Shown here: piece by piece, positions 3,761 through 60,356 of the stretch | Numbering within the stretch: the first letter of the stretch is position 1 | Layout of the letters: each line of letters begins with the position of its first letter | Origin: Sinomonas sp. ASV486 | GTDB lineage: Bacteria; Actinomycetota; Actinomycetes; Actinomycetales; Micrococcaceae | Assembly: GCF_030908215.1 (NCBI RefSeq) | Contig: NZ_JAVFJK010000011.1 | Coordinates: 1 to 64,000 of the forward strand | Direction: 5' to 3' | Length of the DNA stretch: 64,000 nucleotides | Position numbers and translations under genes: made by a program | Notes under the pieces: generated by a model | The model's input: the letters and a program-made list of their open reading frames with translations, nothing else | What the model was told of the DNA's origin: nothing | Database searches by the model: none

Positions 3761-3797
3761 CCCTTCCGGAGGGCGTCGGCGGGGGCTGCCAATCCCG

Positions 3798-3825: not shown

Positions 3826-3894
3826 CTTTTCGTGAGCCGCATCACGCGGCAGTTGTCTACCCCCTTCGACCCCCAACATCTGCAACGGAGCACC

Positions 3895-4830: not shown

Positions 4831-4839
4831 GGGGAAACC

Positions 4840-9838: not shown

Positions 9839-9840
9839 GC

Positions 9841-10299
9841 TCAGATGCCTTCGTAACTGCAGATCTCGCGGACCTTGTCATTGGACGCGCTCGTCTCGTC
9901 GAACACGTAGGTGAGCCATTCCCGCACGTTGCGCCGGGCCTGCTCGATGCCGATGACGCGCTGGCCCATGCACAGGACCTGGGCGTTGTTGGACAGGATG
10001 CTGCGCTCCACCGAGAAGCTGTCATGGGCAGTCACGGCGCGGATTCCCCTGACCTTGTTGGCAGCGACGGCCACCCCGAGCCCCGTGCCGCAGAAGAGGA
10101 TCGCACGGTCCGCCTCGCCGCGGGCCACCATCTCGGCTGCGGTGGTGGCGATCGTCGGATAGTTGGTGCCGCCGTCGGCAGCCACGCCGACGTCTGCGAG
10201 AGACGCCACGAGATCGCTCGCCTCAAGGTCCTTCTTGATGGCTTCCTTGTAGTCGAAGCCAGCGTCGTCCGAGCCGACGACGATGCGCCATGCAGGCAT
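9841..10299 (-). CDS. RpiB/LacAB family isomerase, probable D-erythrulose-4-phosphate isomerase (DerI/EryI-like)
   Basis: Sugar-phosphate isomerase of 152 aa. The N-terminal GSDDAGFDYK replaces the usual SDHAGFELK, and FCGTGLGVAVAANKV is the phosphate/anion loop of the family; the Cys in FCGTG is the usual catalytic base. AAGGAG precedes the ATG. RpiB normally interconverts ribose and ribulose 5-phosphates. The gene order kinase-RpiB-TIM is that of erythritol/threitol clusters, where DerI/EryI makes D-erythrose 4-phosphate for the pentose phosphate pathway, and that is the preferred call. Confidence 0.8.
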   Translation of the reverse strand: MPAWRIVVGSDDAGFDYKEAIKKDLEASDLVASLADVGVAADGGTNYPTIATTAAEMVARGEADRAILFCGTGLGVAVAANKVRGIRAVTAHDSFSVERSILSNNAQVLCMGQRVIGIEQARRNVREWLTYVFDETSASNDKVREICSYEGI

Positions 10300-31412: not shown

Positions 31413-31478
31413 ATGGGCTTCTTTGCCGATCTTGGCTCCGATTCTTCTGCACAGAAGAACTTATTAGCACTTTCGTGA
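31413..31478 (+). CDS. Possible 21-aa leader peptide with consecutive TTA codons
   Basis: An ATG with GAAAGG 8 nt upstream opens a 21-codon frame ending TTA-TTA-GCA-CTT-TCG-TGA. TTA is very rare in this GC-rich DNA, so two in a row are striking and could slow ribosomes as in attenuation or bldA-like control. It lies between two palindromes and before the flavin monooxygenase. Whether it is translated is unknown. Confidence 0.35.
   Translation: MGFFADLGSDSSAQKNLLALS
31442..31459. promoter_or_regulatory. Palindrome TTCTTCTG-CA-CAGAAGAA
   Basis: Perfect 8-bp arms around CA. It overlaps the end of the possible leader peptide and precedes the monooxygenase start by about 130 nt. It may act as operator DNA or, once transcribed, as a short RNA hairpin. 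Confidence 0.55.
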
Positions 31479-31587
31479 GCCGTGTCACTAGCCTTGGTGA
31501 CAGGGGTCCCGCCCGGCAATGTCGCCCGCGGGATCCAGCCCGGGGTCTACGGACCCGAGCGATCAACGCGAGCAACGAGGAGCAGCC

Positions 31588-33555: not shown

Positions 33556-33619
33556 GCCGCACGACGGCTCGCGCTGAGGGCCGGTGCCCGTCGGGCTGAG
33601 CCCAGCGCCCGCCGCATGG

Positions 33620-33677
33620 CAGGCCCTGACCGGCATGACCGGTGCGCGCGCGCACCTGTTGTGCCGGTCAGGGCCTG
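33620..33677. terminator. Nested bidirectional hairpin
   Basis: Perfect 16-bp arms (CAGGCCCTGACCGGCA and its complement) enclose a second perfect palindrome GGTGCGCGCGCGCACC (33641-33656). It lies between convergent stops of the monooxygenase (33555) and the phosphotransferase (33709). Confidence 0.75.
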
Positions 33678-33708
33678 TTATCGCGTGCGCCCGGCGTGCG
33701 CCCCGGCG

Positions 33709-34536
33709 TCACCGCCCCACACCGAGGCCCACCGTGATCCGCTCCCCCTCGGCGTTCAGCCACTCGAGCCGGCGGAGGATCGTCTCCCCCACGCCGTCCG
33801 CCCACATCCGCGCCCAGCCGCCTCCGAGCGTCTGGGCGCGGTGGCGCATAAGGTGCCAGGACCGCTCGGTCCTCCGGATCGCTGTGGGCACCAGCAGGGC
33901 GCGGGCGGGGTCGTCGAGGCCATAGGCATCCGCGACGAGGCGGGTGCGCACGACGGCGTCCGCTCGCCGGAGCGGATCGCTGCGGTCCTGCTCGGGAGAC
34001 AGCGGGGCCCAATGCAGGCACAGGTTGACCACCTCGTCGACCCGCGTGGCGGGCCTGAGGAGGTCGAAGTCGATGAGGGCCACGGCCTGGCCGCCGCGGA
34101 ACACGACGTTCTCGGGCGTGACGTCCAGGTGTCCGATGAACCGCTCGGCCCCGTCGGGCACGGAGGGCTCGGGCGGCATGCCCGGCAGGTCGGGCGGGGC
34201 GACCGCGTCGAGGAGGTGGGCCGGAGGCTCGAACCCGGCCACGGCGTCGTCGTACGCGCGGAGCAGCCGGGCCACCGAGGCGAGGCGTGCATCATCGGCG
34301 AGCCAGGCCGGGTGCGGGCGGCCGGCGACCTCGCCCTCGACGAAGGTGAGCACCTCCCGGCCGCGGTCGTCGAGGCCGAGGAACCGCGGGGCACCCTCGA
34401 ACCCGACGGACTCAAGGTGCCCCAGGACGGCATGGACGAGCGGCGAGTGCGGGCCGAGCGGCCGGCGCACGGTGCCCCCGACGCGCACGATCCCCTCGGT
34501 GACGTCCCCGCCGGGGAGCGGGACTTCATTGGTCAC
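33709..34536 (-). CDS. Aminoglycoside phosphotransferase (APH) family kinase
   Basis: Kinase-like protein of 275 aa. The catalytic loop is FIGHLDVTPENVVF (His-Leu-Asp with Asn), and the metal Asp follows in VALIDFDLLRPAT. The ATP-binding N-lobe is recognisable only by VLTFVEGEV at the hinge. Such proteins phosphorylate small alcohols, sugars or antibiotics; the substrate is unknown. A GTG start at 34536 was chosen because the upstream extension is low-complexity Thr that belongs to the His-rich gene read in another frame. It is followed by a nested terminator. Confidence 0.8.
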   Translation of the reverse strand: MTNEVPLPGGDVTEGIVRVGGTVRRPLGPHSPLVHAVLGHLESVGFEGAPRFLGLDDRGREVLTFVEGEVAGRPHPAWLADDARLASVARLLRAYDDAVAGFEPPAHLLDAVAPPDLPGMPPEPSVPDGAERFIGHLDVTPENVVFRGGQAVALIDFDLLRPATRVDEVVNLCLHWAPLSPEQDRSDPLRRADAVVRTRLVADAYGLDDPARALLVPTAIRRTERSWHLMRHRAQTLGGGWARMWADGVGETILRRLEWLNAEGERITVGLGVGR

Positions 34537-34570
34537 GGCGGCTGAGCGATGTCGAACCCCCCGGGCGGGT

Positions 34571-34867
34571 TCAGTGCTCGTCGTAGTGGTGCTCGTGCTC
34601 GGCGTGCTTGTGCCCGCCGTGGAGGTAGTCCACGTGGTCGCCGTGCTGGATTTCCGCGTGGCCGCAGCCGGGCTCGTGCCTGTGGTCGTGGACGTTGTGC
34701 TCTGCGACGTGCTCGTGATCGTCGTAGTGGTCCACGTGGAGGGCATGCCGGTGGTCGTCGTGCACGTAATCGACGTGGTTGCCGTGCTCTACCGTCTCGT
34801 GTCCGCAGCCGTCACCGTGCTCATGCTCGGTGACAGTGTGGCTCTCGTGGACGTGCGTCTTCGTCAT
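34571..34867 (-). CDS. Histidine-rich metal-binding protein with internal duplication
   Basis: Small protein of 98 aa with 29 His and many Asp/Glu. AAGGGG precedes the ATG by 9 nt. It consists of two related modules, each with a GCGH piece, a HG(N/D)HVDY(V/L)H core and a His-Asp-rich tail. No signal peptide or transmembrane segment is seen, so it is probably a cytoplasmic zinc, nickel or copper buffer. No metal transporter is adjacent. The phosphotransferase gene lies 34 nt downstream on the same strand and may be co-transcribed. Confidence 0.75.
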   Translation of the reverse strand: MTKTHVHESHTVTEHEHGDGCGHETVEHGNHVDYVHDDHRHALHVDHYDDHEHVAEHNVHDHRHEPGCGHAEIQHGDHVDYLHGGHKHAEHEHHYDEH

Positions 34868-35113
34868 CGTGACAAGCCCCTTCGCCTCGGGTTCCGCGGC
34901 CCGGCATCTCGCCGAACGCTTGTCGCCTAGCCTACGGACGGCGCCCGGGCGCGGCCAGTCCTGCGGACGACCACTTGGCGCAGATCCGGGCCCTGCGAGG
35001 GACCTAAGGACGTAGCTGTGGCGGTGCGTGGCCGAAGGTGATCGGCCCGATAGCATCCTCGGGGACGTTCACCGCCCCACCCCGGCACCACACCTTCGAT
35101 CCTGGGACTCGAC

Positions 35114-40595: not shown

Positions 40596-41262
40596 GCGCT
40601 TCTCCTCTGTGATCTCTTGCGGTGCCCGCTCGGGCGAGACCCTGTGACTCGCGTAACACCGGCGCTCCAAGCTATTCGCGGAAAGCGGCAATCTCCGATG
40701 TGCAAAGCACCAGAAAACCCGCCGCGTCGACTGGTCACGCGCACAGGCGGGCGCGGCATCCGCGGTCTTCGGCGCACTGGCCCCCCAAGGCCTCACCCAC
40801 ACCGCGCGAGCTGGCACACCCGCGATCGAGCACGCGTATGCTGTCCAGATGATTTCGCGATGTGGAAGTTGATTTCCCTGTTGTGAAATTCTGATGGGAC
40901 ACTTACGCTGGATCCATCAATCCAATGTGAGGTAGCCCACTCGACTCCCTCTTTTGACCTAGAAACGGCAATCCGATGAACATCTCTGCTGGCGCCGCGC
41001 TGAAGACGAGTTCAGTGCACGCCGGGAGGCGACGGCAAAGTCGCCGGCTTCCCGAGACTCTGATCGTCCATGGGCGGCAGAATCCGAATGGCCGCCCGCG
41101 GCTGCCATTCGGGATCGCCTAAGCCCACCCCGGACGCGGAGCCCTCCAGCACAGCTGAACCATCGCGGCCCTCCTGCGGGGGCCTGCCACGCACGGGTTC
41201 GGGAAGGCACCACCTCCCGGCACGCGCCTTGAGTCCAACTCACCACTGTCCAGGAGCTTCCT
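40596..41262. other. 667-nt region without a clear gene; holds divergent promoters and a structured leader
   Basis: No convincing CDS. An Arg-rich 47-codon frame (40977-41120) has no ribosome site. The half near the MFS start can fold: hairpin 41023-41054 (GGCGAC/GTCGCC stem extended by CGGGA/TCCCG) and hairpin 41082-41115 (ATCCGAATGGC with a near-perfect complement). A lower-GC stretch at about 40850-40960 probably contains the promoter. Confidence 0.45.
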
Positions 41263-42618
41263 TTGTTGTCTCAGGCATCCAAGAACGTCCATCACGACCC
41301 CGCCATCAAGGCCGCACGACCACGGGGCAAGGCGCGGTGGAGCATCGCCCTTCTGATGGGCTTCGGAATTCTCATCAATTACGTGGACCGCCTCTCTATC
41401 TCTGTCACCCAGAAGCCCCTCACCGACGAGTTCGGGCTGACGGCAACGGAATTCGGCGTCCTTTCATCGGCCTTCCTCTGGTCCTACGCCATCATGCAGA
41501 TTCCGTCGGGAATGATGCTCGACCGGTTCGGGGTCAAGAAGGTCTGGGGAGCCAGTGCCGTCCTGTGGACCGTGGCCTCGGTCCTGACCGCCATCGCGTC
41601 CGGCGCGTGGGTCATCATCCTCGCCCGCGTCTTCCTCGGCGTCGCCGAAGCCCCTGCGTTCCCAGGAGCGATGAAGGCCACCGGCCTTTGGTTCCCGCGG
41701 CACGAACGGGGCCTCTGCACGGCCATCTTCGACAGCGGCACACGCCTTGCGAATGTCCTGGGCCTGCCGCTCATCGCTTTCACTGTTGCCACGTGGGGGT
41801 GGCGCGAGGCGTTCTGGCTTCAGGCAGTCCTCTCCCTCGTGTTCCTCGCGGCCTTCCTCTGGCGGTATAGGGGCCCCAAGCACCACCTCGCGAAGGGCAA
41901 GCTCTCGGCCGAGGAGTACGACTACATCATCAAAGGAGGCGCGACCAGCGAGGACATCCGCCCGGCGAGCGACTGGAAGACCATTGGCTACCTCCTGCGC
42001 CAGCGCAAAGTCTGGGGTCTCTCACTCGGTCTGGCCGGCGCCGGATACGTCCTGTGGATGCTCCTTACTTGGTTGCCCGGCTACATGCAGACCAGCATGA
42101 ACCAGAGCATCCTGCAGAGCGGCATCTATGCCGCCGTTCCCGCCTTCGCGATGTTCGTCTCGGAGATGACGATCGGGGGCTGGTGGGTCGACCGGGTCAT
42201 CGGCCGCGGTGCGAACCCTGACAAGGTCCGTAAGGGTGTACTCGTCGCTGGCATGATCGTGGCGCTATTCACGGTCGGCGCCGCATTCAGCAACAATCCG
42301 GTTGTCGCGATCATCTGGATCGCAATCGGCAGTGCCGGCATCGCCCTGGTTTACGTAACGAGCAACTCCCTGCCAGCCCTGATCGCTCCCGAGGGCAGCG
42401 CTGGTTCGCTCGCTGCGATCGTGAACTGCGTGAATCTGCTCGCGGGCGTCGCAGCCCCGATCGTGACCGGCTTCATCGTGGACACAACCGGGCACTTCCT
42501 CTACGCGTTCATTATCGGAGGCGTCGCGCTCATCGGTGGCCTGGCCTCCTACCTCTTCCTCATGGGGAAGATCGAGCCGATCCCCGCCCAGGCCGTCACG
42601 GTCGCGGCGGAGGACTGA
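41263..42618 (+). CDS. MFS transporter, ACS family (hexuronate/glucarate-type)
   Basis: Twelve-helix importer of 451 aa. NYVDRLSISVTQKPL and FGVLSSAFLWSYAIMQIPSG are the ACS-family N-terminal motifs, close to GudP/ExuT-like transporters; GVAEAPAFPGAM is also typical. It appears to start at TTG behind AGGAG at 6 nt. It stands alone; a terminator with a U run follows. Substrate probably an organic acid such as a uronate or aldarate. Confidence 0.85.
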   Translation: MLSQASKNVHHDPAIKAARPRGKARWSIALLMGFGILINYVDRLSISVTQKPLTDEFGLTATEFGVLSSAFLWSYAIMQIPSGMMLDRFGVKKVWGASAVLWTVASVLTAIASGAWVIILARVFLGVAEAPAFPGAMKATGLWFPRHERGLCTAIFDSGTRLANVLGLPLIAFTVATWGWREAFWLQAVLSLVFLAAFLWRYRGPKHHLAKGKLSAEEYDYIIKGGATSEDIRPASDWKTIGYLLRQRKVWGLSLGLAGAGYVLWMLLTWLPGYMQTSMNQSILQSGIYAAVPAFAMFVSEMTIGGWWVDRVIGRGANPDKVRKGVLVAGMIVALFTVGAAFSNNPVVAIIWIAIGSAGIALVYVTSNSLPALIAPEGSAGSLAAIVNCVNLLAGVAAPIVTGFIVDTTGHFLYAFIIGGVALIGGLASYLFLMGKIEPIPAQAVTVAAED

Positions 42619-42638
42619 CCGGCACAGCAGCCGAACAC

Positions 42639-42680
42639 ACGACGGCGGGCCCGCACCTTCCCGGTGCGGGCCCGCCTTTT
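42639..42680. terminator. Hairpin terminator of the recurrent family with T run
   Basis: Stem GGCGGGCCCGCACC / GGTGCGGGCCCGCC with a short loop, preceded by ACGAC and followed on the plus strand by TTTT. Located between convergent MFS stops at 42618 and 42694. Confidence 0.9.
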
Positions 42681-46194: not shown

Positions 46195-46426
46195 AGTTCC
46201 TCTCCTCGGCCCTATTGCTCAGCGGACGCAGTGCTGAGCTTGCAGGTCGGATTATCGCCTCGCGGCATTACTGCGCCGTTATCGGGAGCGAGGCGGCCAC
46301 ATACCGCCACTCATTGGTGACTACGCATTCGTGGAGGAAGCTCGGAACATTGACACGCTGCGCGCCCACCCCGATGCTCGTGACAAATACTTCCGGCCGG
46401 GCGCCGACGTCATCGCGGGGTGGGCC

Positions 46427-48904
46427 ATGAACGAGGGGAACGAGTCCAACGGCTCCGGCGGGATACTTCCCGACGCGCCTGACCTGACTGGCCTCACCGA
46501 GATCCGGGTGCACGGCGTGGGCGGGTTCACGCCACAGGAGATTCTCGGCGACCCGGCGCCCACGACGGTGTGGGGAGATCGGATCGCGGGGTTCTACCGG
46601 ACCGCGGATGATCGCGGCCGGCACCTCGAGGCGTACGCGTGGGGCGGGCTGACATCCCGCTCGCTGGTGCGCGTGCTGTGGACCCTCCTCGCCCCAGCGA
46701 TGCTCGCGAACATGGCAGGGTGGACCGGCCGGCGCCGCGCCATGCCCGTCGAGGTCGAAGCCCGAATGGAGCCCTCGACGTGGGCCTTCCGGTGGTGCGC
46801 CCGGCTCGCCGCCCTCGCGCTGACGGTTAGCGTGGCGGTCATGGTCACCCTGCCGAGCCTGGACACGGTGGCGTACCAGTGCCTCGGGCAGACGGGGTGC
46901 CGCGCCCGCCTGTGGGTCGCCTCGTGGATCGACATCCTCGCTCCGCGGGACCTGCTCGGGGTGCGGCTGGTGTGGGGCGTGGTCCCGTCGGTCGTCATCG
47001 CGGGCCTGTTCGTGTGGCTGGCGCGGGTCTCGAGGAACCGGTACGAGCGCGTCGAGCCGCCCATTGACAAGGATTCCCTGCCAGAGCCGTCGCCGCTGTG
47101 CGCGGCGGCGCAGCGGGGCGGGCTGCGCAGCCCAGAGTTCTGGTCGGGGCGGCTGTGGCACTCGCACCTCTCGAGGCTGCACTTCACCGCGGCGATCGCG
47201 GTGGCCGCCGGAATGCTGGGGTGGTGCGTCGCAGAGGCCAGCGAGCTGCACGGCGCCCCGGCGGCGTGGGCCTTCGGTGGGCTGCTCCTCACGGTCGTGG
47301 AGCTGATGGCCCTCGTCTTCGCGCTCGCGCGTGACGAGGCGAACCAAGCGCTGTCGTGGACGCTGCTCGCGGCCGCACTGGTGTCTCTCGGGGCCGCGGT
47401 GGTGGGCGCGCTGCTCCTGCCCGCCGGGCCGTACGCGCCGCGCAGCGGCGTCCTGCCGGGCATCGTTACCGCCGTCAACGCGGGCTGGGCCTACTCGATC
47501 GCGCTGCTCGCGCCGCTCGTGGCCCAGCAGGTCGCCGCGTGGCTGTCCCGGCGCCGGTACGAACGCCGCCGGGCTTCCGCGAGCACGGAGCCCGCCCCGG
47601 CCATCCCCGTCTTCCCTTGGTCTGCCCCGGTGGTGCTCAACGCCGTCGCCCTCGTCCTGGCCAACGGCGTGCTTGTCTCCGCTGCCCTGCTGGTGGCCAC
47701 CTGGCTCGGCCCGGTCGACTACGGCAAAGGCCCCGAGGACGGCTGCGCCGACCCGTCAACGCTCTGCGTCCCGGTGGCCGTGCTCTCGGTGCAGACGATC
47801 CTGGTGTTCGGGCTCGGCGTCGTCCTGATCGGCCTGCTCCTCGTGGCTGGCCTTCGGCTCCTCGTCCGCGCCCGGGAGGGCGCCGTGGGGCTCACGGGGA
47901 CGCTCGCCCCCGAGTACAGCAAGGTGCCGCCGCCAGAATCAGGGGCCCGCCCGTCCGCCCTGCCGGCCGCCGCCGAGGCAGAAGCCGAGGCAAAGAGGGA
48001 GGCGTGGATCTACTCGGCGCTCGGCCCGGACGCGGACCCCCGCCACCCGCACCGCGAGCCCCCGCAGTGGGTCCGCCGGATCTCCCTCGTGCGTGTCCTC
48101 GCGGGGTCAACGCCTGCCCTCGCCGCGGCACTCACCATCGTGATCGCCCTCGGAAGCCTCGTGGGCGCCGTCGTGTTTCCCGCCTACGTGCTGCTGTTCG
48201 CCCAGAAGCCGCCCGTCCTCTTCGCCACGGCGATCATGGCTCTCGTGGGCCTGCTGCCGGTCGCCTACGGGTTCGCGGCCCGCTATGCGCTGCGGGACGA
48301 GCGCAAGCGCCGGCTGCTGATGGTGCCGTTCGACGTCGGAACGTTCTTTCCGCGCTCGTTCCACCCGTTCGCGCCGCCCTCGTACGCGGAGCGTGCGGTA
48401 CCGGATCTGACCCGGCGCATCTGGTGGATCCACGACAACGGCGGCCGGGTAGTGCTGAGCGCCCACTCGCAGGGCAGCGTGATCGCCGCCGCGACGCTCC
48501 TGAGGCGATCCGGCCGCCCCGACCCCAAGGTGGGGCTCGTGACGTTCGGCGCGCCGCTCGGCAAGCTCAACCGCTGGGCGTTCCCCTCTCTGTTCAGCGA
48601 CGGGCTCCTGCGCTCCCTCGCGGCGGGCCGGGGCGGGCTCGCGCCCGTGCTGTGGCGGAACCTCTACTACGAGACGGACTACATCGGCGGCCCCGTCGAG
48701 TCGCACTGGGCCGCGAGCGCTTTCCCGGGCGACGACGTGATCGCCACCGGGGCGGTGGACGCGTGCTTCCTCGACCCGCCGTCGGACAAGTACGTCTACG
48801 GTCAGCCGCTGCCGCGCATCCTCAGCCACACCGGCTACTGGTTCGACGCCAGCCTGTGGCGGGAGATCAACGCGATGTGCGACAGGATCACGCCTCCGGA
48901 CTGA
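46427..48904 (+). CDS. Large membrane protein with alpha/beta-hydrolase signature
   Basis: Protein of 825 aa. It begins with a short soluble part including TEIRVHGVGG, the oxyanion-type HG loop of lipases. About ten hydrophobic segments follow through residue 650, then a cytoplasmic or external domain with VVLSAHSQGSVIAAATLL, the nucleophile elbow of alpha/beta hydrolases, and LVTFGAPLGKL. Thus the two hydrolase halves are separated by the membrane domain. The frame also opens at 46331 (GTG); the ATG at 46427 was chosen but neither has a good ribosome site. Possibly a membrane lipase or acyltransferase; function not established. Confidence 0.65.
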   Translation: MNEGNESNGSGGILPDAPDLTGLTEIRVHGVGGFTPQEILGDPAPTTVWGDRIAGFYRTADDRGRHLEAYAWGGLTSRSLVRVLWTLLAPAMLANMAGWTGRRRAMPVEVEARMEPSTWAFRWCARLAALALTVSVAVMVTLPSLDTVAYQCLGQTGCRARLWVASWIDILAPRDLLGVRLVWGVVPSVVIAGLFVWLARVSRNRYERVEPPIDKDSLPEPSPLCAAAQRGGLRSPEFWSGRLWHSHLSRLHFTAAIAVAAGMLGWCVAEASELHGAPAAWAFGGLLLTVVELMALVFALARDEANQALSWTLLAAALVSLGAAVVGALLLPAGPYAPRSGVLPGIVTAVNAGWAYSIALLAPLVAQQVAAWLSRRRYERRRASASTEPAPAIPVFPWSAPVVLNAVALVLANGVLVSAALLVATWLGPVDYGKGPEDGCADPSTLCVPVAVLSVQTILVFGLGVVLIGLLLVAGLRLLVRAREGAVGLTGTLAPEYSKVPPPESGARPSALPAAAEAEAEAKREAWIYSALGPDADPRHPHREPPQWVRRISLVRVLAGSTPALAAALTIVIALGSLVGAVVFPAYVLLFAQKPPVLFATAIMALVGLLPVAYGFAARYALRDERKRRLLMVPFDVGTFFPRSFHPFAPPSYAERAVPDLTRRIWWIHDNGGRVVLSAHSQGSVIAAATLLRRSGRPDPKVGLVTFGAPLGKLNRWAFPSLFSDGLLRSLAAGRGGLAPVLWRNLYYETDYIGGPVESHWAASAFPGDDVIATGAVDACFLDPPSDKYVYGQPLPRILSHTGYWFDASLWREINAMCDRITPPD

Positions 48905-48979: not shown

Positions 48980-49891
48980 CTACCCAGCCTTGAAGCGCTC
49001 CCATGCCATCTCCAAGAGATCCAATCTCGGCTTGAGCGACCTCGATGTCGGAACGGACATCAAAGATCGGCCGTGCATCTCCTGGAGGCCGTACTTCAGC
49101 ATGGGACCGTCGATCTCGAGCAGGAGATCGGCCTTGATCTGCACGACAAGATCCGGCCGAATGCCGAGAAGTTGGGAATCGAACGCTGCGTGGTGGATCT
49201 TGCACATTGCCATGCCGTTGACCACTGACGCAATCCCGGCCTCATCTCGGTCTGGCACGATGTGAGCGGCATCCAGGAGCGGCGGATGACCAAGATTGCA
49301 GACGGCACACCGCTGGCGATAGGCGAGCAAGACCTGGGTCCTGAAGATCCCCTGGAACAGGCGATGTCGTGTCTTGACGTCAAGATAGCGTCTGATGTGT
49401 TCCTCGGCGTAACTGTCCGATCCCAATTCGGCCGCGTCAGCGCTTACGAGGAATTGGTGGCCTTCAGGCTCCTCGCCGACCACATAGACCGGGAAGTACG
49501 GCTGGAACAGGCCTTTGGCAATGCCAACGAACCAAATCAACGGGGCCCGAAGGTCCATCGCGGCACGGAGCGCGCGATTCGTGGCCTCATTTGGGTCGGT
49601 CCCGTTCCACTTGTAGCGAAGGAGGATCTCCTTGTCGATGACGCCATCATCGTATGGCCGTTCTGCACCCTCAGGTCTGAACGTCGTCGTTATCGAGAGT
49701 GCGGAGCTGAAGCCCGATGGCTTCCAGATCCCCTTCACACGGTCCTTGAGCGGAAGGGATTCCCCAGCCAAGGTGAAGTCCCGAAGTTCTGCCCAGGTGA
49801 CCGCGCCTGCACCATCGTGGGTCCGGGCTGCGAGCCACTCCATGATTTGTGCACGGATGACGTCTTCATCAAGCCCGAATCTCTCGATCAC
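48980..49891 (-). CDS. HNH endonuclease with N-terminal modification-sensor-like domain
   Basis: Nuclease of 303 aa. The C-terminal HNH fold has a zinc knuckle CAVC (195-198), the HNH start DAAHIVPD (His210), Asn in VVNGMAMC and KIHHAAFDSQLLG. The N-terminal 150 residues (KGIWKPSG, ALSITTTF, LLRYKWNGTDP, FPVYVVGEEPEG) match the domain found before HNH in restriction-like proteins of actinobacteria and resemble SRA/PUA-type readers of modified bases. It starts 24 nt after the helicase stop, so the two are one operon. GC is clearly below that of the neighbours, suggesting horizontal gain. Likely role: DNA cleavage in a defence system. Confidence 0.8.
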   Translation of the reverse strand: MIERFGLDEDVIRAQIMEWLAARTHDGAGAVTWAELRDFTLAGESLPLKDRVKGIWKPSGFSSALSITTTFRPEGAERPYDDGVIDKEILLRYKWNGTDPNEATNRALRAAMDLRAPLIWFVGIAKGLFQPYFPVYVVGEEPEGHQFLVSADAAELGSDSYAEEHIRRYLDVKTRHRLFQGIFRTQVLLAYRQRCAVCNLGHPPLLDAAHIVPDRDEAGIASVVNGMAMCKIHHAAFDSQLLGIRPDLVVQIKADLLLEIDGPMLKYGLQEMHGRSLMSVPTSRSLKPRLDLLEMAWERFKAG

Positions 49892-49915
49892 GAGCGTAAG
49901 CCTAGGCTGGCCACG

Positions 49916-52900
49916 TCACACAGCCACCGCATTGGCAACCGCGAAAACGTCAGCAGGCATTGGACGCTGGAGCTTCCACGTGATTCCGATCGGCTTCTCA
50001 CCCGAATGGCTCACGTAGCGCGCAGTTCCGAGGCAGGTGTACTGCAGAGTCATTCCGCGGTCATCCTTCGCCGCTGCGCGTGTGAAGAGCACAACCTGGG
50101 ATCCGCCGTTGAGGTATCGCTGCCCATCAGCGGAGCTAACCGTCGTGCGGCTCTGCGACTCCCAGTGGAAGATCTCGGGACTGATTGCGTAGTCCTTGTA
50201 GAGGGTCGTCGGCGAGTGGTCGCGCTCGTCTTTGTCGAGTGTCACGAGGAAGGCATCGACACCCGCCTCCTGGCACCACGCCACACCTTCGCGGTGGTTT
50301 CCAATTCCCTTCCCGGGGAAGTCGAACGCAGCCAGAATCTCCTGACGGGTGTATGTGGCGTGCGACTGGATCGGAACACGGGCAAGATCCATGCCGAGGG
50401 ACCTTGGCGAGTGGCGGGCAGCATCTGCGCCAATTGCGCTGACTTGCGCGATTTCGGACGAGGCCCACGGGAAGCTTCGTACGTAGTCGAGTCCTGTATC
50501 GATGTCGGAGCCACCCAGCGCAGACTCCTTCTGAAGCTCAAGCGTGAAGTAGAGCATGCGAGCAAATGCCCTGGTCCGAAAATCCATCGCCTCGTACCTT
50601 GGCGAATCCTCCCGCAGGAGGCGAGCGTAGACTTCAGCCCGTTCCGCATCGTCTACATGTAAGAACCTCGAAATCTTGCTGAGAATCCGTTTCTCGGCCG
50701 AACTGGCTAGATCCACAAGTCGAGTCGAGAGAACTTGCTCGAAGACTGAGTCCGGGCTGATGAGCTGGGCTGCCCGGAGGTATCCAGTCCAGGAGTCCTT
50801 GGTATCGCGGTAGAGGTCCCTGATCTCCGTTCCCGACTCGCGAAGGTACTCCGCCAAGAACGTCGTCCCATGTGAACGGACATCTTGAGCCAGCGCCTTG
50901 CGTGTGAAGCCAAGTTGCGTCCGGATGTTGGTCAGGACGATGTCCTGGGCGACGCGATCCAGCTGGATCTGACAGCCGGACGGCAGCGTCGGGAATTCGT
51001 CGGTCATCTCCCGCTCGAGGCGTTTGCGACCCACTCCGAGAAGTGCTCGGTACTTCACATCAAAGCGGAACTGCCGGTGCTGTTGCCCGATGAAGTCGAG
51101 GACGGTCAATACGGCCTTGCCAGGCGCTCTGCGGAGGCCTCGTCCCAGTTGCTGCAGGAAGACTGTCGAGCTCTGGGTCGGGCGCAGCAGGAGGACCGTA
51201 TCGATCTCAGGGACGTCAAGTCCCTCGTTAAACAAATCGACGGCGAAGAGGCAGCTAACTTCTCGATCCCTCAGTTTGCGAAGAGCCTCGGCCCGCTCGT
51301 CGTCCGGCGTCGAACCACTGACCGCGAGGGAGGCGATTCCCGCCCGGTTGAAGACCTCTGCCATGTAGTGCGCATGCTGAATCGAGACGCAGAACCCGAT
51401 CGCACGCATGTCCGCGGTGCTCAGCACCTTGTCCCGCACAGAGCTGATCACCTTGGCGGCCCGAGCATCGTTTCCCGTGTAGATCGCGCTGAGTTGCGAT
51501 AGGTCGTAGGTTCCCCGATGCCACTCAAGACGCGACAGGTCCACATCATCAGCCACACCGAAGTAGTGGAATGGGACCAAAAGGTCCTCGCCCAACGCGT
51601 CCCAGAGGCGCATCTCGCTCGCTGTCCGACCGATGAAGTACTCGTTGGCGACGCTGACGCCGTCCCCGCGTTCCGGCGTCGCCGTCAGGCCGAGTAGTTC
51701 CTGGGGCGCGAGACGCTCGAGGATGCGTCGATACGTGGGCGCGGCGGCATGGTGGAATTCATCGATGACGACGATGTCGAAAGCTTCCGGACCGAGTTGG
51801 TCGAGGCGCTCTTCGCCCAGCGACTGCACCGATGCGAAAACATGACGCCAATCGCGCGGGACGTCCCCACCGACCAGGATCTCGCCAAAGCTTCCGTCAT
51901 TGAGAACACGACGGTATGTCGCTAGGGACTGTTCGAGGATCTCCCTGCGGTGCGCCACGAATAGCAGCGTCGGCCTCTCGGGCTTGCCCTCGGCCAGACG
52001 CTTGTAGTCGAGTGCCGCCACGACCGTCTTACCCGTGCCAGTAGCCGCAACGAGAAGATTCCTGTGATAACCCTTCGAGCGCTCGGATTCGAGATCGTCG
52101 AGCATTTCCTGCTGGTGGAGGTAGGGCATTACCTCGAGGCCTGTGGGGCCAAGATCTCGCTGCCGCTCGGTGCTTCCAGACCGTCGGAGAGCCTCATCGA
52201 GGCGCTCCGCGTCGGTGTCGGGGTCGTAGGGGACAAATCGCCGGTCTTCCCAGTACGAGTCAAAGGTGATCTGGAACTTCTGCAGGAGGCGCGGGGTCCC
52301 GACGCCCGACAGCCGGACGTTCCATTCCAGACCGTCTAGCAGTGCGGGTTGGCTGAGGTTCGAGCTTCCCACGTACGCCGTATTGAACCCTGTCACTCTG
52401 CGGAACAGCCATGCCTTGGCGTGAAGTCTCGTCGCGTTGGTCTCATAGTTGATCCGGACCTCAGCACCGTAGCGTCGGACGAGTTCATCGATCGCTTGGC
52501 GCTCCGTGGCTCCCATGTACGTGGTCGTGATGACCCGCAGGCGAGTTCCGCGGTCCCTGAGCGCACGAAGTTCGGCCTCCAGAAGCCTCAGGCCACGCCA
52601 CTTTATGAAGGCGCAGATGAGGTCCACCGAACTGGCTGATTCGAGCTCCCGACGCAGTTCGTGGGCGAGGTTGGGGTCCTCATGGCTCGCCGTCAGAAGG
52701 GCGGCATCACTGAAAGGCGTGGTCGGGCGGCGCAGCTCCCTGCGGCGAATGTCTGTGGAGTCATAGACCGCGTGAAGGATTTCCGGACCGGCCAGAACAA
52801 GATCCGGATCTTGATCGTCCGCAATCGAGCGAAGGAGCCGATTGGCCGTCGCCACACGGTGTTCGGCCGGAGCCGAGGAAAGCTTCGCCCTTGCAACCTT

Positions 52901-53071
52901 TTCAATATGACGGGCTAGGAGGTCTGAGACGTCATCTGCGGAAACGGGCTGAAATGTCGTTGCGCGCCCTGCCGGCAATGCAGTCACTCGCTGTTGGAGT
53001 TCCTCTGTCCTCAGAGTCTCGTACAGCCCATTCGGCAGCTCTGCCCCGTCGATTCCCCCAGAATCAGTCAC
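49916..53071 (-). CDS. PLD nuclease-DEAD/DEAH helicase-DUF3427 protein
   Basis: Multidomain protein of 1051 aa. A helical N-terminus is followed by a phospholipase D-like domain with His-Ala-Lys (217-219) and GSSNLS (235-240), i.e. one HxK half-site. A superfamily 2 helicase follows: Walker A AATGTGKT (342-349), DEFHH (437-441), TATP (463-466) and motif VI QLGRGLR (641-647). The C-terminal 280 residues are DUF3427, ending YTCLGTARYVSH and ITWKLQRPMP, a fold related to readers of modified DNA. It precedes the HNH gene by 24 nt. DNA is lower in GC than the flanks. Candidate translocase/nuclease of a phage-defence pair. Confidence 0.85.
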   Translation of the reverse strand: MTDSGGIDGAELPNGLYETLRTEELQQRVTALPAGRATTFQPVSADDVSDLLARHIEKVARAKLSSAPAEHRVATANRLLRSIADDQDPDLVLAGPEILHAVYDSTDIRRRELRRPTTPFSDAALLTASHEDPNLAHELRRELESASSVDLICAFIKWRGLRLLEAELRALRDRGTRLRVITTTYMGATERQAIDELVRRYGAEVRINYETNATRLHAKAWLFRRVTGFNTAYVGSSNLSQPALLDGLEWNVRLSGVGTPRLLQKFQITFDSYWEDRRFVPYDPDTDAERLDEALRRSGSTERQRDLGPTGLEVMPYLHQQEMLDDLESERSKGYHRNLLVAATGTGKTVVAALDYKRLAEGKPERPTLLFVAHRREILEQSLATYRRVLNDGSFGEILVGGDVPRDWRHVFASVQSLGEERLDQLGPEAFDIVVIDEFHHAAAPTYRRILERLAPQELLGLTATPERGDGVSVANEYFIGRTASEMRLWDALGEDLLVPFHYFGVADDVDLSRLEWHRGTYDLSQLSAIYTGNDARAAKVISSVRDKVLSTADMRAIGFCVSIQHAHYMAEVFNRAGIASLAVSGSTPDDERAEALRKLRDREVSCLFAVDLFNEGLDVPEIDTVLLLRPTQSSTVFLQQLGRGLRRAPGKAVLTVLDFIGQQHRQFRFDVKYRALLGVGRKRLEREMTDEFPTLPSGCQIQLDRVAQDIVLTNIRTQLGFTRKALAQDVRSHGTTFLAEYLRESGTEIRDLYRDTKDSWTGYLRAAQLISPDSVFEQVLSTRLVDLASSAEKRILSKISRFLHVDDAERAEVYARLLREDSPRYEAMDFRTRAFARMLYFTLELQKESALGGSDIDTGLDYVRSFPWASSEIAQVSAIGADAARHSPRSLGMDLARVPIQSHATYTRQEILAAFDFPGKGIGNHREGVAWCQEAGVDAFLVTLDKDERDHSPTTLYKDYAISPEIFHWESQSRTTVSSADGQRYLNGGSQVVLFTRAAAKDDRGMTLQYTCLGTARYVSHSGEKPIGITWKLQRPMPADVFAVANAVAV

Positions 53072-53140
53072 CCGCTCAGCCTATGGCCACCATCAGACAT
53101 TCCACGACGGGCACGGCCGAGAGAGTCGGGGCTGAGATGT

Positions 53141-53344
53141 CTACCCCTTCCCCTGCTCCCGCTTCCGCCGCTCCGACTCCTCGCGGTGGCGGCGGATTTC
53201 CGCCTGGATGAGCTGCTCCTCCTCGGTGAAGCGGAGGGCGTTGGCGTCGTCGACGGAGTCGCGCGAGCCGTCTGCCTCCTGCTCGGCAGGGAACTCGGCG
53301 TCGTCGTCGGCGGGTTCGGGGGTGGTGGCACGCTGCTCAGTCAT
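53141..53344 (-). CDS. Small acidic hypothetical protein
   Basis: Protein of 67 aa. The first half is Asp/Glu/Pro-rich, and the second is a charged helix (FTEEEQLIQAEIRRHREESE). Codon use is GC-rich like the chromosome, unlike the neighbouring helicase. No ribosome site is obvious and no family is recognised. Confidence 0.5.
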   Translation of the reverse strand: MTEQRATTPEPADDDAEFPAEQEADGSRDSVDDANALRFTEEEQLIQAEIRRHREESERRKREQGKG

Positions 53345-53438
53345 GGCCACACTGTAAACCCGTTGGAGTGGGATGTGGGGTTTCGACTCCACGGCGGATT
53401 TCGGCTTCACTCTGCCACCGTCCCGGTACGCTCACAGC

Positions 53439-54272
53439 ATGACAATCGGCATCACCGGCGTCACCGGGACGATCGGCGGGCAGGTCGCCCGGCTCCTCGC
53501 CGCCGACGACCTCCCGCTCGTTCTGCTCGCGCGAACCCCAGCGAAGGCACCCAAGCTGCCACGCGCCGTCGTGCGCCCGGCCGACTACGGCGACCGCCCC
53601 CTCTGCGAGCGCTCGCTCGAGGGCGTCGAGACGCTCTTCATGGTCTCCGGGCGGGAGAGCGAGACGCGTATGGACGAGCACCGCAGCTTCATCGACGCAG
53701 CCGCCGCGGCCGGGGTGCGGCACGTGGTCTACACGTCCTTCATGGGAGCCGAGCCCGACGCGACCTTCACCCTCGCCCGCGACCACTTCGCCACCGAGGA
53801 GTACATCAAGGACGCCGGCCTCGCCTATACGTTCCTTCGCGACTGCCTCTACTCCGACTTCCTCGAGGGCATGGTGGGGGACGACGGCGTCATCCGCGGG
53901 CCCGCGGGCAACGGCGCCGTCGCCGTGGTCGCCCAGGCGGACGTCGCCAGGTGCGCCGCCGCCGTGCTGCGCGACCCGGCCGCCCACGCCGGCGTGACTT
54001 ACACCCTCACCGGCCCCGAGGCCCTCACCATGGCCCAGATCGCGCACATCATCTCCGCCATCCGCGGCACCCACGTGACCTTCCACAATGAGACCGTCCC
54101 CGAGGCCTACGAGTCGCGCAGGAAATGGCCGGCGCCCGACTGGGAGTACGACGCCTGGGTCTCCACCTATACAGCCGTCGCAGCCGGCGAGATGGAGCAC
54201 GTGACGGACGACGTCGAGACCCTCACCGGACGTCGGCCCATGAGCCTCAAGGAAGTCCTGCTGGCCGAGTAA
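53439..54272 (+). CDS. Atypical SDR, NAD(P)H:quinone oxidoreductase (QorB/NmrA-like)
   Basis: Protein of 277 aa with Rossmann start ITGVTGTIGGQVARLL and LARTPAKAPKL for the cofactor phosphate. ARDHFATEEYIKDAGLAYT and LRDCLYSDFL match the QorB group, which reduces quinones with NADPH. The ATG follows TACGCT (53427-53432) by 6 nt without Shine-Dalgarno, so it is probably leaderless. Confidence 0.8.
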   Translation: MTIGITGVTGTIGGQVARLLAADDLPLVLLARTPAKAPKLPRAVVRPADYGDRPLCERSLEGVETLFMVSGRESETRMDEHRSFIDAAAAAGVRHVVYTSFMGAEPDATFTLARDHFATEEYIKDAGLAYTFLRDCLYSDFLEGMVGDDGVIRGPAGNGAVAVVAQADVARCAAAVLRDPAAHAGVTYTLTGPEALTMAQIAHIISAIRGTHVTFHNETVPEAYESRRKWPAPDWEYDAWVSTYTAVAAGEMEHVTDDVETLTGRRPMSLKEVLLAE

Positions 54273-54506: not shown

Positions 54507-54774
54507 GATCCCCACCGCCTCGGGTGCTGGGCGGCGCCCCTACGGCGCCGATAGTCAAGGATAGGCTCGAAATGTGGGGCCATCACCCCCGCAATGTGGG
54601 GCGAACGCGGCTTTGGCTGGGGTGCGGCGAGTCCCGGCCAGGCACCTCGACCCGAAGGCGCGGGAGGCCGCCGTCGTGCCTTGGTCCCAGAGGTGGGCCG
54701 ACCGTGGGCCACGGGCTCTACACCCGCGGGCCCAGCGGCGGTACCGTTACGCCACGAGCGGCGGAAGGACTGTG

Positions 54775-55080
54775 ATGGCACGCTTCCTCATCACCTACCA
54801 CGGCTACCCCTACCCGGACATGGACGTCCTCACCGCCCAGCGGCGCGACTTCCGGGCATGGGCCCAGAAGGCCCTCGGACAGGCCATGGTGGACTTCGGT
54901 GCGCCGGTCTATGACGCCGGGCAGATGTCCACCAAGGGGCCGCCTCTCCCGCCGGTCGAGATCGACGGCTACACGATCATCGAGGCGCGTTCCGTGTCCG
55001 AGGTCCGCGCTCTCCTCGAGGACCACCCATTCCTCGCCCTCGGAGGCACGATCCAAATCAACGCGTGCTTCGACGTGTGA
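54775..55080 (+). CDS. YCII-related domain protein
   Basis: Protein of 101 aa with the ferredoxin-like YCII fold: FLITYHGYPYPD at the start, AMVDFGAPV, and VEIDGYTIIEARSVSEVRALLEDHPFL, which is the most conserved part. GGAAGGAC precedes the ATG. A near-identical paralogue lies at 56800-57102, and the 30 nt before each start are also conserved. YCII proteins are small enzymes or accessory domains with His/Asp pockets; this function is unknown. Its 3' end overlaps the convergent TetR gene by 23 nt. Confidence 0.8.
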   Translation: MARFLITYHGYPYPDMDVLTAQRRDFRAWAQKALGQAMVDFGAPVYDAGQMSTKGPPLPPVEIDGYTIIEARSVSEVRALLEDHPFLALGGTIQINACFDV

Positions 55081-56590: not shown

Positions 56591-56799
56591 GCCGTGTCGG
56601 GTGTGCTCGGGGCCCGCGCGGAGAGGGCCCGGCTCACCGCGCGGCCGGGCCGCCCGCCTGGCACCGGCAACTACCACGGACACGACCTCGGGATGAGCCC
56701 ATTCGGCGCGATGGAGGTCCTGCCAACAGCGCGGTGCGGAGCCTACCCGGGCGCGCGCTGCGGGGGTACCTTTACGGCACGCACCGCGGAAGGACGGCC

Positions 56800-57102
56800 A
56801 TGACACGCTTCCTCATCACCTACCACGGCATGCCGTATCCGGAGACCGACGTCGTCGCCGAGAGCCGCCGCGCCCTGCGTGCCTGGGCGGATGCAAAGCT
56901 CGGCGCCGCGCTCGTCGATTTCGGGGCGCCCGTGCTTCTCGGAGGGCAGCTGTCCGCCGGTCAGGCTACAGATCCGGTCGAGATCGACGGGTACACGATC
57001 ATCGAGGCACGCTCACTCTCCGAGGTGCGCGACATCCTCGCGGACCACCCGTATCTGGCACGCGGCGGGACCCTGCAGATCAACGAGTGCGTGGCGATGT
57101 GA
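56800..57102 (+). CDS. YCII-related domain protein, paralogue of 54775-55080
   Basis: Protein of 100 aa: FLITYHGMPYPE, ALVDFGAPV and VEIDGYTIIEARSLSEVRDILADHPYL repeat the other copy almost word for word. The leader GGTACC-TTTACGGCACG-GCGGAAGGAC is conserved between the copies, indicating duplication with the control region. It is followed after 23 nt by a subtilisin gene on the same strand. Function unknown. Confidence 0.8.
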   Translation: MTRFLITYHGMPYPETDVVAESRRALRAWADAKLGAALVDFGAPVLLGGQLSAGQATDPVEIDGYTIIEARSLSEVRDILADHPYLARGGTLQINECVAM

Positions 57103-58671: not shown

Positions 58672-60288
58672 ATGGCAGACTCCCAGTTCATGACATCCCG
58701 GACAACGGCGCCCGGCGCCACCGCATCCACCTCGCCTGCCGGCGGGCCCACCACCGCGCCCGACGCTCCGCGCGCCTCCTTCGAGCAGCTGGCCTCCCTC
58801 GCCACGGGAACCGGCCCCGCGCTCGAGGTGACCGCCCCGTTCGACGGGCAGCCACTCGGCGTCGTGCGCCAAGCCGCGGAGGGCGAGGTCGCGGCGGCTG
58901 TGCAGCGCGCCAGGGAGGCGCAGAAGCGCTGGGCGGCGACCCCCGCGAGGACCAGGGCCGCCGTGGCCCGGCGTTTCGCGAAGCTCGTGCTGGACCGGCG
59001 GGACGAGATCCTCGACGTGGTCCAGGCAGAGACCGGCAAGTCGCGTCTCGCCGCCCTCGAGGAGGTCGTGGACGCCTCGATGACGGCCTCGCACTACGCG
59101 CACACGGCCCCCGGGCTCCTGCGTCCGCGGCGCCATGTCGGCACCTTCCCGCTCCTGACGCAGACCACCGAGCTGCGCCATCCGAAGGGCGTGGTCGGGG
59201 TCATCACCCCCTGGAACTACCCGTTCACGCTCGTGGCGAGCGACTCCATCCCCGCGCTGCTCGCGGGCAACGCCGTAGTCATCAAGCCGGACCACCAGAC
59301 CCCGTACTCGGGCCTGATGGTCCTGGACCTCCTGTGGCAGGCCGGGCTCCCCGACGGGCTCGCGCAGGTGGTGCTCGGACCCGGCGCCGTGGTGGGGCCG
59401 CAGCTCATCGACGCGGTCGACTTCGTGATGTTCACAGGCTCGACGGCGACCGGACGGGTTGTGGCGCAGCGCGCCGCCGGGCGGCTCATCGGGTTCTCTG
59501 CGGAGCTGGGCGGCAAGAACCCGCTCATCGTGCTGCCCGACGCGAACATCCCCGCGGCCGCGGCCGGCGCCGCACGGGCCTGCTTCGCCAATGCGGGCCA
59601 GCTGTGCGTGGGGCCCGAGCGGATCTATGTGCACGAGGCCGTCCGCTCGCGGTTCACCGAGGCGTTCCTCGACGAGGTCTCGAGGATTCGCGTCGCGCCC
59701 GGGACGTCCTGGGACGCGGACATGGGCTCGCTCATCTCCCCCGCGCACCTCGCGCGGGTCCAGGCGCACTTGGACGACGCCGTGGGCAAGGGCGCACGGA
59801 TCCTCGCCGGCGGCGCCGCCCGGCCCGATCTGGGTCCGGGCTTCTTCGCCCCCACCGTGCTCACCGACGTCCCCGAGACCGCGGACCTCGTGCGTTCCGA
59901 GACCTTCGGTCCCGTCGTGGCCATCTACCCCGTCCGGACCGAGGACGAGGCCATCGCCCGCGCCAACGACAGCGTCCTGGGGCTCAACGCGAGCGTGTGG
60001 ACCACGCCGTCGCGCGGGCGGGCGCTCGGCTCCCGGATCGAGGCCGGAACCGTCAACGTCAACGAGGGCTACGCGGCCGCGTGGGCCTCGCATTCGGCGC
60101 CGATGGGCGGCTGGAAGGAGTCCGGACTGGGCCGCCGCCACGGAGCGGAGGGCCTGCTGAAGTACACCGAGGCCCAGACCGTCTCGGTGCAGCACGCCCT
60201 GCCCATCGCCCCCTGGACCGGGATGAGCAACGAGCGCTTCGCGAACCTCTTCACCCGGGCCACAGGCATCCTCAACCGGTTCCGCTGA
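58672..60288 (+). CDS. Succinate-semialdehyde dehydrogenase-like aldehyde dehydrogenase (GabD2 type)
   Basis: NAD(P)-dependent enzyme of 538 aa that oxidises an aldehyde to its acid. Conserved pieces: TPWNYPFTL, FTGSTATGR (cofactor), ELGGKNPLIV with catalytic Glu, ANAGQLCVGPERIYVHE with the nucleophile Cys, and EAGTVNVNEGY. The Pro/Ala/Thr-rich first 40 residues are as in actinobacterial GabD2 proteins. GGAGAG stands 5 nt before the ATG. Succinate semialdehyde is the usual substrate, from 4-aminobutyrate or the oxoglutarate branch. Stands 68 nt before an SDR gene that has its own promoter. Confidence 0.85.
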   Translation: MADSQFMTSRTTAPGATASTSPAGGPTTAPDAPRASFEQLASLATGTGPALEVTAPFDGQPLGVVRQAAEGEVAAAVQRAREAQKRWAATPARTRAAVARRFAKLVLDRRDEILDVVQAETGKSRLAALEEVVDASMTASHYAHTAPGLLRPRRHVGTFPLLTQTTELRHPKGVVGVITPWNYPFTLVASDSIPALLAGNAVVIKPDHQTPYSGLMVLDLLWQAGLPDGLAQVVLGPGAVVGPQLIDAVDFVMFTGSTATGRVVAQRAAGRLIGFSAELGGKNPLIVLPDANIPAAAAGAARACFANAGQLCVGPERIYVHEAVRSRFTEAFLDEVSRIRVAPGTSWDADMGSLISPAHLARVQAHLDDAVGKGARILAGGAARPDLGPGFFAPTVLTDVPETADLVRSETFGPVVAIYPVRTEDEAIARANDSVLGLNASVWTTPSRGRALGSRIEAGTVNVNEGYAAAWASHSAPMGGWKESGLGRRHGAEGLLKYTEAQTVSVQHALPIAPWTGMSNERFANLFTRATGILNRFR

Positions 60289-60356
60289 GGGGCCCGCGCC
60301 GGACTTCCTCCGCATGCAGGGCGCGACCGATGCTACTCGCTGGTAACCTACATCAC

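Follow-up and report, generated by a model that had tools for sequence, protein, structure and literature searches.

Two adjacent genes in a 64,000-nucleotide (nt) stretch of DNA from Sinomonas sp. ASV486 (hereafter the window, meaning the whole stretch analysed) encode a helicase protein of 1051 amino acids (aa) with a DUF3427 region and a 303-aa HNH endonuclease. The initial annotation, made from the sequence, had taken them for a candidate modification-sensing defence module in which both proteins may read modified DNA. Both open reading frames (ORFs) are real genes and the annotated 24-nt distance was confirmed. As argued below, we find it fairly probable that the pair represents two neighbouring modification-dependent restriction enzymes of known kinds, each probably working alone. 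The features of the locus are as follows.

49916..53071, minus strand: helicase gene, SauUSI-like, 1051 aa (ORF with GTG start; PADLOC PDLC03659, 7clg, Pfam domains)
48980..49891, minus strand: SRA-HNH (TagI-like) endonuclease gene, 303 aa (ORF with GTG start; HNH_2 E 1.1e-11, fold model, Foldseek match to TagI 6ghs)
49892..49915, minus strand: intergenic gap of 24 nt from helicase stop to HNH start, genes on the same strand, helicase first (sequence)
52250..52651, minus strand: PLD nuclease half-site, residues 141-274, with H217, K219, GSSN 235-238 and E249 (Pfam PLDc_2)
51668..52126, minus strand: SF2 motor RecA domain 1, ResIII, residues 316-468, with Walker A ATGTGKT and DEFH (Pfam E 5.7e-35, motifs)
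51131..51424, minus strand: SF2 motor RecA domain 2, Helicase_C, residues 550-647, with motif VI QLGRGLRR at 641-648 (Pfam E 9.2e-15, motif)
49919..50494, minus strand: helicase C-terminal reader, DUF3427 region, residues 860-1051, SRA-like predicted fold (AlphaFold2, Foldseek)
49412..49891, minus strand: N-terminal reader of the HNH protein, about residues 1-160 (boundary approximate), SRA-like predicted fold (Foldseek)
49160..49309, minus strand: HNH nuclease motif, residues 195-244, with C195xxC198, H210, N225, C230xxH233, H234 and D238 (Pfam HNH_2)
53072..53140, minus strand: stretch upstream of the helicase start (local DNA alignment with Sinomonas atrocyanea)

Domain composition of the two proteins

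Pfam searches on the 1051-aa protein returned PLDc_2 (residues 141-274), ResIII (316-468), Helicase_C (550-647) and DUF3427 (902-1043), the last covering model positions 128-276 of 280 only. The PLD residues H217, K219, GSSN and E249 are all present and the SF2 motifs ATGTGKT, DEFH, LTATP and QLGRGLRR are intact, thus confirming the PLD half-site, helicase motor and DUF3427 that had been annotated. The PADLOC model mREase_IV PDLC03659 matched with 1073.8 bits, aligning helicase residues 115-1049 to model positions 16-942 of 945, and the best PDB sequence match was SauUSI (7clg, E 3e-85), with homology, far beyond chance, extending across the PLD and motor parts and weaker in the reader. H217, K219, N238 and E249 are kept in 36 of 39 distinct aligned members of the helicase family, the remaining three being without H217 and K219. 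Residues 860-1051 were modelled with AlphaFold2 from 35 sequences (pLDDT, the predicted local distance difference test score, 88.7; predicted TM-score, pTM, 0.82), and a Foldseek search with this model placed two SauUSI chains (7clg) on top, with TMq 0.56 and 0.48 and a best root-mean-square deviation (rmsd) of 3.4, followed at ranks 3-10 by AbaSI, SUVH6, MspJI, SUVH9 and TagI.

On sequence grounds the helicase is SauUSI-like, a member of a named Type IV restriction family with a solved structure, and so of a known and not an uncharacterised kind. According to the accessible text of PMC7913695, SauUSI combines a PLD nuclease dimer, an SF2 motor translocating on DNA and a C-terminal SRA-fold domain, and its target is S5mCNGS, the modified base being 5-methylcytosine (5mC) or 5-hydroxymethylcytosine (5hmC). 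The window helicase is predicted, and probably able, to perform 5mC/5hmC-dependent, ATP-driven cleavage.

The 303-aa protein gave a Pfam match to HNH_2 only (195-244, E 1.1e-11), and its N-terminus returned no Pfam match at E <= 0.1. A whole-chain model built from 23 sequences (pLDDT 80.7, pTM 0.69) showed TagI (6ghs) as its best Foldseek match (E 1e-6), followed by VcaM4I, ScoMcrA and isolated SUVH5 SRA domains (114-121 columns, TMt 0.39-0.49, prob 0.95-1.00, rmsd 4.4-6.7), with SauUSI at rank 31. C195, C198, H210, N225, C230, H233 and D238 occur in 23 of 23 aligned sequences and H234 in 22 of 23; the 22 aligned relatives are 37-50% identical to the window protein. Ala228/His229 and His254/Asp258 of TagI correspond to A209/H210 and H234/D238, the TagI residues and SRA-HNH family features being those given in the accessible text of PMC6212794. 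We conclude that the HNH protein is SRA-HNH in architecture, its SRA part being assigned by predicted fold alone, and that it is a new family of a known kind; it is predicted, and probably able, to cleave DNA in a modified-cytosine-dependent manner without nucleotide triphosphate. The reader-like N-terminus initially annotated was thus borne out at the level of predicted fold, and structure prediction of both reader domains, which had been proposed as a check, returned SRA-like folds in two proteins that each carry their own nuclease.

It is very unlikely that these readers sense another modification, phosphorothioate or a different base, in place of 5mC/5hmC. The HNH C-terminus does match the phosphorothioate-dependent family NF045808, but its 51.3 bits lie far under the curated cut-off of 180 and the match covers residues 170-285, the HNH part. 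Both readers are modelled with folds like those of modified-cytosine readers, and the depletion of C5-methyltransferases described below also argues against a different base. Phosphorothioate reading was rejected as a candidate on the NF045808 score.

Genomic distribution and linkage of the two families

The two families were surveyed in 297 genomes of the taxonomic order of the window (HNH E <= 1e-30, helicase E <= 1e-150) and, at the same thresholds, in a sample of 396 genomes from the phylum; the helicase searches scored two candidates per genome, and helicase counts may be low. Within the order, HNH was present in 50 of 297 genomes and the helicase in 54, both occurring together in 7 against 9.1 expected, so that 43 of the 50 HNH genomes and 47 of the 54 helicase genomes are without the other family at the thresholds used. 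The phylum sample contained 33 HNH and 28 helicase genomes with both in 6 of 396 against 2.3 expected (P 0.02), or 5 against 2.2 without the window (P 0.06), and four of the six (G140, G151, G236 and G269) belong to one family. The co-occurrence that the initial annotation had proposed to look for is above expectation in the phylum sample and not in the order, so that any enrichment of joint presence is weak at most.

Genomes that have both families hold them as neighbours more often than random placement would give: no more than 1.4 kb separates the two genes in 5 of 7 order genomes, or in 4 of 6 when the window is excluded, the random expectation being about 0.0036 per genome. Three arrangements are seen among these five: helicase and then HNH in the window, HNH first and then the helicase in two genomes of one genus (G432 and G514), and tail to tail in G503, at a distance of 311 bp, and in G500, where a DUF4352 gene stands in the middle. 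G307 and G610 have the two families on different contigs. As controls in the same 50 HNH genomes, GmrSD_N was found within 5 kb of HNH in 3 of the 23 genomes having one (G410, G501 and G587) and N6_Mtase in 0 of the 21 having one, control gene distances being compared by eye. With the window excluded, the helicase value (4/6) gave Fisher probabilities of 0.018 against GmrSD_N and 0.0009 against N6_Mtase; counting the two congeneric linked genomes as one, with the controls uncollapsed, these became 0.050 and 0.004. Linkage in the phylum sample was seen in the window and in G140, where a partial helicase gene (residues 109-359) lies 2.4 kb from HNH, and the other four genomes with both families have them on different contigs.

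Among 80 named HNH loci, of which 46 have about 10 kb on both sides and the rest end at contig ends, 76 are without a SauUSI-like gene in the available flank; the four with one are Arthrobacter sp. MYb213 and three Geodermatophilaceae. On an HNH tree of 112 rows (quick search, no bootstrap; 4 duplicates dropped), the linkage seen in 10 rows takes 7 changes to explain, whether gains or losses, and supported branches force 6 of these. Removal of the weaker linked cases, G140 with its partial gene and Arthrobacter MYb213 with a divergent SauUSI-like gene (32%), left 6 changes for 9 rows and 5 for 8 rows. Linked labels are mildly clustered (1 of 500 shuffles as low); the tree includes loci chosen for being linked, and the linked share on it is not meaningful.

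A first look with flanks of about 1.5 kb had found no helicase beside 29 non-window relatives, and the idea that the pair is unique to the window was dropped when the order-level searches found linked cases. Helicase-only relatives of the same family (L091-L094) gave no HNH and no Nudix match in the 10-17 kb examined. Matches were found in 969 plasmid records, 9 of them over at least 80% of HNH, and six plasmid regions examined (about 6 kb per side) were without an annotated SauUSI-like gene. A phage origin was rejected, as 5 phage records match and none over 80% of HNH.

The gene order of the window is kept in three Geodermatophilaceae, where a helicase-DUF3427 gene stands just before HNH in L149 (5847-9887), L156 (2266-6126) and L173 (6073-9936). 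These genes encode 1346, 1286 and 1287 aa and, by the listed ORFs, lie 56, 62 and 22 nt from HNH, respectively. The L173 partner carries two ResIII, two Helicase_C and one DUF3427, with no PLDc_2 match. Since the alignment shows neither the PLD His nor the PLD Lys in any of the three partners, the HNH protein may be the only nuclease of the Geodermatophilaceae pair.

These loci bear on a joint enzyme or system, in which the SauUSI-like protein would find modified DNA and translocate while HNH would be recruited to it as an additional nuclease or, in certain lineages, as the sole one. The 24-nt gap on one strand with the helicase first, the conserved order and short gaps of the Geodermatophilaceae, the recurrence of linkage on the HNH tree and the co-occurrence in the phylum sample are all in its favour. 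We nevertheless consider it unlikely, given the many order genomes with one family and not the other, the variable arrangements and the situation in Sinomonas atrocyanea.

The nearest HNH relative, 86% identical, belongs to the sister species S. atrocyanea DS1018 (L116), whose locus aligns by blastn with window positions 31445-34958, 40853-42676, 49050-49894, 53141-54265 and 58686-60302 in the same order. Its HNH frame is open (332 aa), and only 244 bp (9754-9997) separate it from the next shared gene, against 3.2 kb in the window. A reading frame within these 244 bp encodes a peptide that aligns with the N-terminus of the helicase over 19 residues. Its score of 49 was attained in none of 5000 shuffles when the first 120 residues were the target, and in 2 of 2000 when the whole helicase was. 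On this match the helicase was most likely deleted in S. atrocyanea, leaving its first codons, and HNH was retained. The stretch ATAGGCTGAGC upstream of the window helicase (53072..53140) recurs near the L116 helicase remnant, with a score of 24 against 23 for the best of 30 shuffles, which is weak alone. Of all the observations, the S. atrocyanea locus speaks most strongly for an HNH protein that needs no helicase; a recent deletion could also leave an HNH gene that is on its way out. Overall, the pair is a recurrent but optional neighbourhood and not an obligate system.

A further possibility is that HNH is a Type II restriction enzyme or another solitary HNH nuclease that reads no modified base, its SauUSI-like neighbour reflecting clustering in defence islands. 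To its credit are the lack of a conserved partner in 25 loci, the GmrSD or AbiH neighbours of some loci, a Type I restriction-modification operon on an Allochromatium plasmid, and one PADLOC match to the HNH part that carries the description Type II restriction enzyme. We judge it distinctly unlikely, because no methyltransferase family recurs beside HNH in the clustered loci, N6_Mtase lies within 10 kb of HNH in 0 of the 21 genomes having one, the whole chain matches the fold of TagI and its reader matches SRA domains, and HNH shares with SauUSI-like genes the Nudix neighbour described below. Type II restriction-modification was rejected on the clustering of the 25 HNH loci, in which no family besides HNH occurs in more than 3; the clustering took up to 4 ORFs per side with a crude gene picker, 9 of 29 loci had flanks of about 1.5 kb, and 4 of 29 were dropped as their HNH ORF had been missed. 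GmrSD-type genes near HNH relatives were recorded in L096 (10133-12118, PADLOC models), L104 (8588-10378) and L173 (11021-12997, both by Pfam), and an AbiH gene in L098 (8879-10012). L100 contains a 944-aa open frame (2088-4922, minus strand) with an SF2 helicase (ResIII, Helicase_C) and sigma-70 regions 1.2, 2 and 4, a fusion or merged genes.

Around the pair in the window itself, the annotated drop in GC content is clear against the immediate flanks, with 0.59-0.62 inside the pair (1-kb windows), 0.71-0.74 just left (46.5-49.0 kb) and 0.68-0.72 just right (53.0-57.5 kb). Farther left (40-46.5 kb) the GC content falls to 0.63-0.68, and the pair stands out strongly against its immediate flanks only. 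ARAGORN found no tRNA in the window, and no defence island was seen at this locus, with 0 PADLOC matches (E <= 1e-5) among 10 neighbouring ORFs scanned. An 857-aa ORF (46331-48904, plus strand) lies tail to tail with the HNH gene; it gave no Pfam, PADLOC or NCBIfam match at the limits used and had no counterpart in L116 among the blastn matches. Two similar small proteins of the.RFLITYHG.PYP type are encoded at 54574-55080 and 56734-57102 and cross-match each other's L116 copies.

C5-methyltransferase content and the Nudix neighbour

As carriers of enzymes that cut 5mC DNA should tend to be without C5-methyltransferases, we counted PF00145 (E <= 1e-20) in helicase carriers (12 of 54), HNH-only genomes (14 of 43) and control genomes with neither family (31 of 63; 100 first planned); the genome of the window has 0. 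The difference between helicase carriers and the control was significant (two-sided Fisher test, 0.004). When labels were shuffled within families containing both groups (one-sided), helicase carriers showed 9 against 15.1 expected (43 + 41 genomes, 0.002) and HNH-only genomes 13 against 17.8 (38 + 47 genomes, 0.02). Genomes with HNH at 50% identity or more had PF00145 in 2 of 13, a subset chosen after seeing the data.

A Nudix hydrolase of the PADLOC candidate family PDC-S07 recurs beside both nuclease families. The best NCBIfam match of all five scanned copies was NF007834, a pyrimidine (deoxy)nucleoside triphosphate diphosphatase, at 92-103 bits, below the cut-off of 156, and one copy has among its PDB matches the CTP pyrophosphohydrolase 2rrk, which we take to be E. 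coli NudG. In the accessible texts, the kcat/Km of E. coli NudG for 5-methyl-dCTP is about 28 times that for CTP (PMC5158307) and Orf135 is termed highly specific for 5-methyl-dCTP (PMC10742078).

Counts of this neighbour come from the best 59 copies in the order and are lower bounds. Eighteen of these 59 are found no more than 1 kb from a window-type helicase or HNH; Nudix stands next to the helicase, upstream and on the same strand, in at least 13 of 54 helicase genomes and near HNH in at least 5 of 50 HNH genomes. The 20 top-scoring copies fall outside those 18, and 17 of them directly adjoin a SauUSI-like gene (L196-L200, L202, L203, L205-L210 and L212-L215, the exceptions being L201, L204 and L211); PLDc_2, ResIII and a nearly full-length DUF3427 were present in the two of these SauUSI-like genes that were scanned. 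In L200 the helicase match is split across two frames. A weaker Nudix copy (91 bits) also lies just upstream of the helicase in G594. All three genes occur in the order Nudix, SauUSI-like, HNH on one strand in Arthrobacter MYb213, and together in G503. On a Lactiplantibacillus plantarum plasmid (L222), the annotated order is a Nudix-type pyrophosphohydrolase, the helicase and, downstream, a nucleotide pyrophosphohydrolase; none of four other annotated plasmid helicase regions examined has such a gene, and a fifth region carries no annotation. The window locus has no Nudix gene; in its genome a single member of the family (94 bits) lies on a different contig. With 218 of 297 order genomes carrying it (E <= 1e-15), the family is widespread, so that its place is informative and its presence is not. 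A neighbour common to the two nuclease families gives indirect support for a shared target, modified cytosine. No description of a Nudix link to SauUSI, Type IV or modification-dependent restriction was found in the accessible parts of the literature, preprints and most subscription papers being outside its scope.

Proposed function and comparison with known systems

For two restriction enzymes that work side by side, we infer the modified base, sequence context, cutting, ATP use and defence role as follows. The SauUSI-like protein would bind modified cytosine through its DUF3427/SRA-like domain, hydrolyse ATP to move along DNA and cut with a PLD active site built from two protomers. The SRA-HNH protein would bind modified cytosine through its own SRA-like domain and cut without ATP, as a dimer, some distance away. 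Together they would form a modular Type IV barrier, ATP-dependent and ATP-independent, to phage or plasmid DNA that carries 5mC or 5hmC, and the sequences they prefer may differ. This proposal builds on the domain composition and conserved catalytic residues of both proteins, their SRA-like predicted folds, the recurrent yet non-obligate linkage, the S. atrocyanea locus with its helicase remnant and the smaller share of helicase carriers that have a C5-methyltransferase. If this is true, modified-cytosine cutters of both types are produced from one locus, and Dcm-methylated plasmids are predicted to transform such hosts poorly.

Several observations weigh against this interpretation. The missing PLD His and Lys of the three Geodermatophilaceae partners fit a joint system better than independence, and the phylum sample shows more joint occurrence than expected. 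In the window PLD motif, Arg224 replaces Glu126 of the SauUSI HxKx4E, for which reason the protein is called SauUSI-like and not a SauUSI equivalent; Glu is found at this position in 3 of the 36 distinct PLD-bearing relatives. For the HNH protein, whole-chain TM-scores are about 0.3 with an rmsd of 16, as would be expected if the two domains of the model are placed differently, two loops (residues 76-88 and 164-176) are of low confidence, and the 23-sequence profile finds TagI weakly, at E 0.093, through its HNH part, with -0.6 bits for the SRA stretch. Finally, the C5-methyltransferase depletion of HNH-only genomes is not significant when unstratified (Fisher test, 0.11), and both the HNH-only and the helicase groups include the carriers of such enzymes counted above.

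A wider proposal, which we offer tentatively and regard as possible but doubtful, is that SauUSI-like enzymes, the SRA-HNH family and NudG-like Nudix hydrolases are interchangeable modules of one Type IV strategy. The nucleases would destroy modified-cytosine DNA and the Nudix enzyme would hydrolyse 5-methyl- or 5-hydroxymethyl-dCTP, either keeping salvaged modified nucleotides from the host chromosome and so from self-cleavage, or stopping a phage from building modified DNA. The window would be a form without Nudix, and the dual-helicase and HNH pair of the Geodermatophilaceae a form in which HNH replaces PLD. If true, this would offer a testable answer to how a Type IV host avoids modification of its own DNA while it salvages modified nucleotides released by the breakdown of phage or foreign DNA. 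The PLD and HNH nucleases are unrelated, and both have readers predicted to be SRA-like; the two repeatedly come together, and at other loci each has an enzyme of the nucleotide pool as its neighbour. What is newer here, the Nudix link and the dual-helicase form, lies outside the window.

No description of the pair as a named system was found in the accessible parts of the literature on DUF3427, SauUSI and SRA-HNH, with preprints and most subscription papers outside its scope. Coexistence of the two kinds is published, as an unverified SauUSI-like gene and an SRA-HNH gene are among three systems of Streptomyces coelicolor (accessible text of PMC6212794).

Compared with known systems, the SBD-HNH phosphorothioate-dependent enzymes resemble the window HNH protein in joining a reader to a C-terminal HNH, and ScoMcrA is among its structural matches; the sub-threshold NF045808 match leaves out the N-terminus. 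TagI and the SRA-HNH family (ScoA3IV, TbiR51I; 6ghs) share with it the N-terminal SRA-like fold, the C-terminal HNH and the CxxC, and TagI also the Ala before the first His and the Asp four residues past the last His. The window protein differs from TagI in that its reader has no significant sequence match and it forms a family of its own; its second zinc pair would be CxxH, as in CflDI, where TagI has CxxD (accessible text of PMC6212794). CglI and NgoAVII, like the window helicase, combine a PLD nuclease with an SF2 helicase-like ATPase, but distribute these functions over two subunits and use a B3 reader, whereas the window protein is a single chain with an SRA-like reader (accessible text of PMC7913695). 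SauUSI of S. aureus (7clg) likewise carries a PLD nuclease, an SF2 motor and a C-terminal SRA-fold reader on a single chain, and the window helicase differs from it in length (1051 versus 953 aa), in the Arg for Glu of HxKx4E and in adjoining an SRA-HNH gene.

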